This document shows positions 8,701 through 10,649 of a stretch of 64,000 bases of DNA, one piece after another. The notes beneath the pieces are model-generated. The model was not told where the DNA came from and did no database searches. It saw only the letters and a list, made by a program, of their open reading frames with translations. Source of the stretch: Halopiger aswanensis. Its GTDB lineage: Archaea > Halobacteriota > Halobacteria > Halobacteriales > Natrialbaceae. Made by a program: the position numbers and the translations under genes. Every line of letters starts with the position of its first letter. Position 1 is the first letter of the stretch. The stretch is from positions 1,240,001-1,304,000 of the forward strand of contig NZ_RAPO01000001.1 of assembly GCF_003610195.1 (NCBI RefSeq). Direction: 5' to 3'.

Positions 8701-9339
8701 GTGACCGACACGAAGCCCGACGACCGCACCAGCGAGCCGTGCGGCTGTAAGGTCGGACGCATCGCCGACCAGTACGCCCTCGAGGGGCTCGACGACGAGC
8801 TCGTCCGCTACTGGACCGACCGGACGGAGGACCGCTACAGCACCCGCGACCTCGCGGAACACGTCAACCAACGGGTCCTCGCCGCCGCGCTCGACGAGGC
8901 CGGCCTCCAGTACAAGGACGGCGAAGTCGAGAACACCTACCGACTGCTCACGAGCGACGACGTCAGCAGCGGGACGCGCGTCCAGACGCGCAAGGAACTC
9001 GAGCGCGACGCCGTGCCGATCGAGGACGTCGAGAGCGACTTCGTCTCCCACCAGACGGTCTACAACCACCTGACCGACTGTCTCGAGGCGTCGCTCGAAT
9101 CCCCCAGCGACGAGGAGCGACTCGAGCGAAGCCGGGACAAGCTCGGTGCGCTTCGGAACCGGACATCGGCCGTTACCGAGGACACGATCGACCAACTCGA
9201 GCGGGGCGACGTCCTCGACATCGGGGAGTTCAACGTGCTCGTGAACGTGACGGTGACCTGTGAGGAGTGCAAGACCCAGTACACGGTGCAGGATCTGTTC
9301 GATCAGGGTGGCTGTGACTGCCAGCAGTCCGCGGACTGA
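8701..9339 (+). CDS. rdfA: Rod-determining factor RdfA
   Basis: 212 residues from a GTG start backed by a TATA-like run 25 nt upstream. It matches the haloarchaeal RdfA family, reported in Haloferax volcanii as needed for rod-shaped cells. Visible features are the N-terminal EPCGCKVGRIADQY block (Cys14, Cys16), LDDELVRYWT, LAEHVNQRVL, the EVENTYRLLTSDDVSSG core, SDFVSHQTVYNHL, and a C-terminal cysteine cluster in TCEECKTQYT and GGCDCQQ that probably binds zinc. No membrane segment is present, so a cytoplasmic regulatory role is likely. It is convergent with the Vms1-like gene. The family assignment is from memory of its signature blocks. Confidence 0.85.
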   Translation: MTDTKPDDRTSEPCGCKVGRIADQYALEGLDDELVRYWTDRTEDRYSTRDLAEHVNQRVLAAALDEAGLQYKDGEVENTYRLLTSDDVSSGTRVQTRKELERDAVPIEDVESDFVSHQTVYNHLTDCLEASLESPSDEERLERSRDKLGALRNRTSAVTEDTIDQLERGDVLDIGEFNVLVNVTVTCEECKTQYTVQDLFDQGGCDCQQSAD

Positions 9340-9569: not shown

Positions 9570-10649
9570 TCAGTCGATCGCGAACCGCAACAGCGCGCCG
9601 ACGCCGTCGAAGGCCTCGGCGAAGCGGCTCCCGTCCGGGAAATCGTCGGGCACGACGACCGTCTCGCCGCCCTGTTCCATCGTGCGGTCGCCGAACGCCC
9701 GGAGCTGCTGGCCCTCGAGCGCCGTCGAGAGCAACAGCGTGTCCACGGCGTCGTACTCGAGCGCGTCGTCGACCTCGTCCGTGCCGTAGGCGACGGCTGC
9801 GTCGTCGTCGCGGACCGCCTCGAAGAACTCCTCGAGCGCGTCGCGGGCGTCGCGCCGATCGCGTTCGTCGATCGCCGACTGGCCCTTCTCCGCGAGTTGC
9901 CGAAGGCCCTGTTCGCTGGCGTACTCGACGGCGAACTCGCCGAGGAGCCGGTCCTCGAGTCGGTGATCGAGGTCGGCCTCCTCGCGGAAGTCCTCGACCG
10001 TGCCGGTCGTACCGCCGAGGAGGACGCCGTCGACCGGGCCGCTCTCGCAGAACTCGAGGACGGCGCGCTCGGCGACCTCGTCGAAGAACTCGCGCTTTTG
10101 CCGTTCGCGGTCGCGTTCGAACCGCTCGGCAGACTGACCGCCGGCGCTGGACTTGCCGGGGACGTCGCTGTCGAAGATCTCGATGGGTTCGACGCCGGTA
10201 TCGTCGAGTCGGCCGAGGGCGGCGCCGCCGCGCTCGACGACGAGCAATCCGTAGGTCGAGTCGGGTTCGGCGACGGCCTCGAGCGGGGAGAGGTCGAACT
10301 CGTTGGCGTACTCGTAGATCGACTCGTCGATCGCCACGGGGAGGTCGTCGAAGACCGCTGTCACGAGATCGCCGTCGGGCGCGCCGGCGTAGATCGCGAG
10401 GCCGTTCTCGGGGACCTCCTCGTAGTCGTTCAACTCGCTGCGAACGGTCTCGAGAGCGTCGGTCAGGGGCTCCGGGAACGACTGTTCGTCGAGTTGCGTC
10501 GCTTCGGCGTAGTCGGTTTCGACCGGCTGGCGGGCTTCGCCGATCGATTCGTCGGGCGGGACGGCGAGCGTCACGAGGATATCGCGGTCGGCGTCGGCCG
10601 ACGAGAGACGGTCGAGTCGGTCGTGGAGTTCGTAGTTTGCCATCGACAT
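9570..10649 (-). CDS. Vms1/Ankzf1-type peptidyl-tRNA hydrolase (eRF1-like)
   Basis: 359 residues from the ATG at 10649 (MSMANYEL); the frame extends 13 codons further but that stretch is non-family. The protein has the three-part layout of archaeal/eukaryal release factor 1 relatives: an N-terminal region to about 130, a central domain to about 290 and an L30e-like C-terminal domain. The central domain carries PGKSSAGGQSAERFERDRE (residues 164-182), closely resembling the eRF1 GGQ loop that cleaves peptidyl-tRNA. In eukaryotes Vms1 releases nascent chains from tRNA on stalled 60S ribosomes; the haloarchaeal protein is inferred to act in ribosome rescue. It lacks an obvious codon-reading NIKS motif, so it is unlikely to be the normal termination factor. 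Confidence 0.85.
   Translation of the reverse strand: MSMANYELHDRLDRLSSADADRDILVTLAVPPDESIGEARQPVETDYAEATQLDEQSFPEPLTDALETVRSELNDYEEVPENGLAIYAGAPDGDLVTAVFDDLPVAIDESIYEYANEFDLSPLEAVAEPDSTYGLLVVERGGAALGRLDDTGVEPIEIFDSDVPGKSSAGGQSAERFERDRERQKREFFDEVAERAVLEFCESGPVDGVLLGGTTGTVEDFREEADLDHRLEDRLLGEFAVEYASEQGLRQLAEKGQSAIDERDRRDARDALEEFFEAVRDDDAAVAYGTDEVDDALEYDAVDTLLLSTALEGQQLRAFGDRTMEQGGETVVVPDDFPDGSRFAEAFDGVGALLRFAID

Follow-up and report, generated by a model that had tools for sequence, protein, structure and literature searches.

In archaea, ribosome rescue is known mainly as splitting by pelota and ABCE1, in which the peptide stays on the tRNA, and ArfB and ICT1 are precedents for GGQ-bearing rescue factors that have lost codon reading. 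As for the release factor aRF1, all archaeal sequences sampled in a 2008 survey had NIK, YxC(or T)xxxF and GGQ, and the survey found paralogues only in ciliates (PMC2613156). The extracts used here of a 2019 release-factor survey describe clades of aRF1, Dom34, baeRF and VLRF1, the last of which has lost its C-terminal domain, and these extracts do not mention a haloarchaeal aRF1 paralogue (PMC6514570). Similarly, the part used here of a 2026 paper on archaeal hibernation factors reports potential Balon homologues in Methanosarcinia, Syntropharchaeia and Thermoplasmatota and does not name the class Halobacteria (PMC13324472). Our own literature search, which covered open-access and not subscription papers, found no published description of the minidomain-less aRF1 clade presented below.

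The window that we analyzed spans 64 kb of a haloarchaeal genome of 4.87 Mb, assembled in 17 contigs. On its minus strand, an open reading frame starts with an ATG at position 10649 and runs through 359 codons and a stop to position 9570, with the following features:

9570-10649, minus strand: coding sequence (359 aa plus stop) of an almost certain aRF1 paralogue lacking the zinc minidomain and NIKS, assigned from profile and structure matches, orthologues and dN/dS.
10266-10637, minus strand: N domain (residues 5-128), homologous to the stop-codon-reading domain of aRF1, from TIGR03676, 2llx and hhalign.
10485-10496, minus strand: Q52-L53-D54-E55 at the NIKS position, from alignment with the aRF1 of the same genome; Asp takes the place of the stop-codon-contacting Lys.
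10296-10316, minus strand: Y112-E-Y-A-N-E-F118 at the YxCxxxF position, from alignment; Cys lost, Tyr and Phe retained.
9864-10265, minus strand: M domain (residues 129-262) with the eRF1_2 peptidyl-tRNA hydrolase fold, from PF03464 (83.4 bits), the AlphaFold model and a fold search.
10104-10160, minus strand: GGQ loop PGKSSAGGQSAERFERDRE (residues 164-182), with GGQ itself at residues 170-172 (10134-10142).
9573-9863, minus strand: C domain (residues 263-359) of the eRF1_3/pelota type, from PF03465 (61.2 bits) and alignment; without zinc minidomain.

Judged from its sequence, this protein is to be grouped with aRF1, with the three-domain layout of aRF1 (N, M and C) predicted to be complete. 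It was matched by the Pfam models eRF1_2 (2.3e-23) and eRF1_3 (1.6e-16), by the aRF1 equivalog model TIGR03676 (237 bits over residues 5-316 for a cut-off of 234.7, with 246-248 bits for its orthologues) and, as best solved structure, by the archaeal aRF1 4af1 (E 8e-45, residues 5-311), so that the match is far beyond chance, while its identity to the genome's own aRF1 is 30% over 404 columns. The N domain of human eRF1 (2llx) was matched as well (residues 12-124, 5e-4), and hhalign aligned the window N domain with haloarchaeal (E 5.7e-18) and other archaeal (5.4e-16) aRF1 N domains; the N-terminal domains of the genome's own pelota and VLRF1, used as single-sequence controls, gave no match. 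An earlier sequence-only reading of this DNA had reported a release-factor GGQ signature and the lack of a NIKS-like motif, and both observations hold: PGKSSAGGQSAERFERDRE corresponds exactly to residues 164-182 of the 359-aa protein, and Q52-L53-D54-E55 aligns on the N-I-K-S of the genome's own aRF1. Its further statement that the other domains differ from those of aRF1 has to be corrected, as the N and C domains are both of the aRF1 type and the missing part is only the zinc minidomain within the C domain, amounting to about 44 residues relative to the genome's own aRF1 (P0003). The C-terminal end reads GALLRF, compared to GILRY in aRF1, so GxxLRF is retained. Altogether, the window gene almost certainly encodes an aRF1 paralogue from which the known motifs for stop-codon reading have disappeared.

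An AlphaFold2 model built on a nine-sequence alignment gave pLDDT values of about 73-92 over residues 131-260 of the M domain, lower and variable values in the C domain, and poor values below 50 (25-46) over residues 1-129, so that the fold assignment of the N domain rests on sequence. The eRF1 middle-domain fold, on which the idea of a release-factor-like hydrolase depended, was found in the predicted structure, where it matched 2hst and 4af1: VIA-align gave a Z of 13.5 (rmsd 4.3) for the model M domain against the isolated eRF1 M domain 2hst. Foldseek and VIA-align both put aRF1/eRF1 first, with a Z of 19.1 for 4af1 over M and C (230 aligned residues), the high rmsd of this match being due to a different arrangement of the domains. 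A second tier (Z 11-14) contained pelota (3wxm, Z 14.3) and Balon (8v9l, Z 14.1; 8rd8, Z 12.7), again for M and C of the model.

Four proteins with an eRF1 middle domain are encoded in this genome: aRF1, the window protein, pelota and VLRF1. Since the canonical aRF1 (L001) has NIKS, GGQ and the zinc minidomain, ordinary termination needs no window copy. Pelota is encoded separately (L003), and a genuine VLRF1 (L004) on another contig has the loop KGGFSQARFERLR, an N-terminal coiled coil, no C domain and an acVLRF1 score of 126.9 bits; VLRF1 is present in 114 of 116 sampled haloarchaea. These proteins bear on the name "Vms1-like" that the sequence-only reading had given to the window protein and that we do not retain, as the protein has the aRF1 three-domain layout, its best matches are aRF1 proteins and the true VLRF1 lies elsewhere in the genome. 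The Pfam acVLRF1 model did match the window protein with 60.0 bits (cut-off 27.1), below the 83.4 bits of eRF1_2; since the canonical aRF1 also passes with 54.5 bits, this match is non-discriminating. The NCBIfam acVLRF1 model gave 62 bits for a cut-off of 125, and where Vms1/VLRF1 proteins lack the N and C domains of aRF1, the window protein has an aRF1-type N domain and an eRF1_3 C domain. A Vms1-like identity is thus rejected in view of the architecture, the model scores and the real VLRF1 of the same genome. The functional version of this idea, a Vms1/ANKZF1-like hydrolase acting on split 50S-peptidyl-tRNA, would draw on the GGQ M domain that is common to VLRF1 proteins and on the Pfam score just given; we consider it very improbable for the same reasons of score, architecture and distribution. 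A 50S-peptidyl-tRNA substrate was suggested because of the Vms1 label, and it is less likely than the A site of the 70S ribosome. Other families of this fold were compared in the same manner: the window protein scored 62.9 bits with the pelota equivalog TIGR00111 (cut-off 177.65), 37.6 bits with NF052289 of the Rv2629/Balon family (cut-off 320) and 54.1 bits with baeRF family 10 (PF18854, cut-off 27.1), for which the canonical aRF1 scored higher (57.0).

We then describe the distribution of the paralogue, using a profile from nine orthologues run over 292 Halobacteria genomes. Orthologues above 600 bits were confined to the window's family, where 19 of the 75 Natrialbaceae genomes sampled had one; the orthologues from other Natrialbaceae have 68-91% identity to the window protein, and all belong to genera of that family. 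A further 33 profile matches lay at 250-408 bits, where canonical aRF1 reached at most about 213, and many of these 33 were on small contigs. Counting each genome once, about 48 of the 292 carry a paralogue, which makes it a patchy haloarchaeal clade. A plasmid search found a minidomain-less relative with about 45-47% identity on 13 haloarchaeal megaplasmids, including pHME132 of Haloferax mediterranei (L147, 8001-9077), with others at L148, L149 and on 10 more plasmids. Eleven of these 13 plasmid records annotate the relative as prf1 (peptide chain release factor aRF-1), while the two others are unannotated. The NCBI aRF1 equivalog model also names paralogues like the window protein canonical aRF-1/prf1, so that genomes seem to have two termination factors although one of them has lost its decoder. 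On megaplasmids, genes that keep both NIKS and GGQ adjoin a pair encoding a PIN-like and a small protein in three genomes, and a MazF-type pair lies nearby in H. mediterranei. A viral origin was rejected, as no relative was found in phage records, in a viral-contig scan or in PHROGs, and a known defence-system protein was likewise rejected, with no PADLOC match.

In the window, the neighbours are an EamA-like transporter, an HTH regulator, RdfA and a glycerate-kinase-like gene, which are conserved only locally and show no translation, stress or functional link. The RdfA gene (rod-determining factor A, PF21811, 2.5e-76) lies at 8701-9339 on the plus strand, convergent with the paralogue gene, and this pairing occurs in six loci. 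A PTH2 peptidyl-tRNA hydrolase gene is found near the paralogue in three Natrinema-type loci (L007, 3518-3856, minus strand; L079; L080) and is absent from the other loci.

The patchy occurrence, in 19 of 75 sampled Natrialbaceae, shows that the function of the paralogue is dispensable, and it could also be expected of an aRF1 duplicate that decays without function. Truncated copies that look like relics do exist (L053 at G020:C1:200514-201170 and L076 at G282:C2), one of them, that of G020 C1, with AEGQ in place of GGQ. Pairwise dN/dS values (Nei-Gojobori) nevertheless make such decay barely credible for the window gene: whole-gene values among Natrialbaceae orthologues were 0.10-0.24 (0.14-0.24 for pairs that include the window gene), with 0.08-0.29 for the N domain (0.11-0.29 in most pairs) and 0.12-0.18 in most pairs for the M domain, and all three domains are under purifying selection in the window's subfamily. 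In the nine orthologues, which represent nine genera or species, 171 of 359 columns were invariant, and the GGQ loop belongs to the most conserved 31-residue stretch, with 30 of 31 columns invariant from 163 to 193. Thus, a codon-blind N domain is maintained, as its dN/dS indicates, and the invariant GGQ loop together with the low M and N values indicates selection for a sequence competent in hydrolysis as well as for a functional N domain.

Motif states were compared in 46 full-length members of the clade, none of which has the zinc minidomain. Eleven keep NIKS (HIRS in one case) and GGQ, and all 11 also keep the Cys of YxCxxxF; 25, including the window protein, have GGQ without NIKS; and 10 have neither. 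Of the 35 NIKS-less members, 32 have Asp in place of the NIKS Lys, none has the Cys of YxCxxxF and all have its Phe. In a maximum-likelihood tree made without the NIKS, YxC and GGQ columns, the minidomain-less proteins formed one clade (100/99) in which NIKS changed once (NIKS-less clade 99/93), and since this single loss was followed by retention of Asp in 32 of 35 descendants, the loss of NIKS looks like a stable new state, not decay. On the best tree, GGQ was lost three times, later than NIKS, although the branching of the NIKS-less subgroups is weak and the starred branches force fewer losses. The sister of the whole clade differs between trees, being haloarchaeal aRF1 in one and not in a tree from fewer columns. 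Because the minidomain is also absent from some outgroup aRF1 proteins outside the class, its absence alone is not special.

What the NIKS-bearing branch may do is suggested by two draft genomes. In G131 (96% complete), the aRF1 locus (L150, G131:C15:198730-199647, minus strand) is decayed: its frame of 306 aa joins the N domain directly to the C domain, without the GGQ domain, and has DIES at the NIKS position. A minidomain-less clade member with NIKS and GGQ (L072/L152, G131:C14) was the only intact release factor detected in this draft genome, and a sibling genome has a normal aRF1. In the fragmented draft of G021 (1.9 Mb, 98% complete), no canonical aRF1 was found and the only aRF1 present was minidomain-less (G021:C29:13084-14133, L074/L153). 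If these cases are real, the members of the NIKS-bearing branch are functional termination factors, and the NIKS-less branch arose from such a factor. By their motifs, the minidomain-less plasmid forms with NIKS and GGQ probably still read stop codons, since they have kept NIKS and YxCxxxF. Such apparently functional relatives, found on 13 plasmids and as the only intact release factor of one draft genome, together with the acceptance of the window protein by the NCBI aRF1 equivalog model, could point to the window protein being another termination factor, one whose stop-codon reading is altered or relaxed and which serves special conditions or codons. This is improbable in our view, because NIKS and the Cys of YxCxxxF are lost in all NIKS-less members, with Asp mostly replacing Lys, and disrupting NIKS or YxCxxxF impairs decoding in eRF1 (PMC2613156).

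The GGQ-less relatives raise a different alternative. They have intact frames and fall into three subclades (L047, L048, L054, L058, L060 and L061; L067 and L070; L073 and L075), and they are candidate Balon-like factors in the class Halobacteria. Within one family, GGQ-less members have dN/dS values of 0.18-0.25, so these are not pseudogenes; the GGQ-less pair L073/L075 is looser (0.53). Since close relatives lost GGQ three times with constrained frames intact, the function shared by the clade may not be hydrolysis, and a Balon-like A-site occupant becomes the strongest competitor for the window protein as well: it would bind idle or stressed ribosomes, block the A site and protect or store them, with a GGQ that is secondary, serves to remove residual peptidyl-tRNA or is in the process of disappearing. 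Apart from these losses, in lineages whose N and C domains are still constrained, the second-tier fold matches (8v9l, 8rd8 and pelota 3wxm) and the weak Rv2629/Balon-family match speak for such an occupant, and Balon itself arose in the same superfamily through loss of NIKS and GGQ (PMC10901736). We still consider it rather unlikely here, because Balon is without GGQ, while GGQ is invariant among the window orthologues and within their most conserved segment, and because the score is far from the Rv2629-family cut-off, aRF1 being closer in sequence and in fold (Z 19.1).

The reading that we prefer, with the chances evenly balanced, is that the window protein acts as an A-site peptidyl-tRNA hydrolase without stop-codon reading, that is, as a ribosome-rescue factor. 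The dedicated rescue hydrolase of the sequence-only reading therefore survives as the best-supported mechanism, given the intact GGQ and the absence of stop-codon motifs, with its activity predicted from these motifs, and its Vms1 framing does not. The GxxLRF-type end of aRF1 is used for the GTPase partner. In the proposed mechanism, the C domain with its GxxLRF end would allow aEF1A, or else diffusion, to deliver the protein to a stalled 70S ribosome. The N domain, which has lost the decoding motifs, would then occupy the decoding centre of the A site without reading a codon, the A site probably being empty or the mRNA truncated. The M domain, whose motif, fold and selection are described above, would place GGQ in the peptidyl-transferase centre, where peptidyl-tRNA would be hydrolysed, and ABCE1 may finally split the ribosome, as after normal termination in aRF1 biology. 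The canonical aRF1 would handle ordinary termination in the same cell.

Such a GGQ factor without stop-codon reading would provide the hydrolysis that archaeal rescue on the 70S ribosome has been missing. Besides, the clade is a natural series (NIKS and GGQ, GGQ only, neither) in which closely related proteins reproduce the presumed steps to Balon and pelota, and this series is testable in genetically workable haloarchaea. As a broader and tentative proposal, to which we give less than an even chance, one haloarchaeal family may span a termination factor with NIKS and GGQ that is able to replace aRF1, a rescue hydrolase with GGQ only (the window gene) and, arising three times, a Balon-like factor with neither motif; in that case, Archaea would have in the window gene their first dedicated 70S peptidyl-tRNA rescue hydrolase.

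Among known systems, aRF1 (PF03463/PF03464/PF03465, TIGR03676; 4af1) shares the same three-domain order, the GGQ loop and the GxxLR(F/Y) end, whereas the window protein has QLDE for NIKS, no Cys in YxCxxxF and no minidomain, and is a second copy beside a canonical aRF1. The pHME132 form of H. mediterranei (WP_004060444.1) belongs to the same clade, with 358-359 aa, no minidomain and 45-47% identity, but keeps NIKS and YxCxxxF. Balon (Rv2629/Msmeg1130; 8rd8, 8v9l) has, like the window protein, an aRF1-like layout without NIKS; it differs in being bacterial and without GGQ, with about 15-23% identity in structural alignment. Pelota/Dom34 has related M and C domains and is a codon-independent A-site factor, but with an Sm-like N domain and no GGQ. 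Vms1/ANKZF1 and VLRF1 resemble the window protein in their M domain, which is homologous and has a catalytic Gln loop, and the VLRF1 of the same genome differs by its N-terminal coiled coil, its GGFSQ loop and its lack of a C domain. Finally, ArfB/ICT1 and other bacterial and mitochondrial GGQ rescue factors, which hydrolyse without codon recognition, offer an analogy of working and not of descent: their fold and lineage are unrelated, and ArfB/ICT1 use a C-terminal tail to sense an empty mRNA channel.
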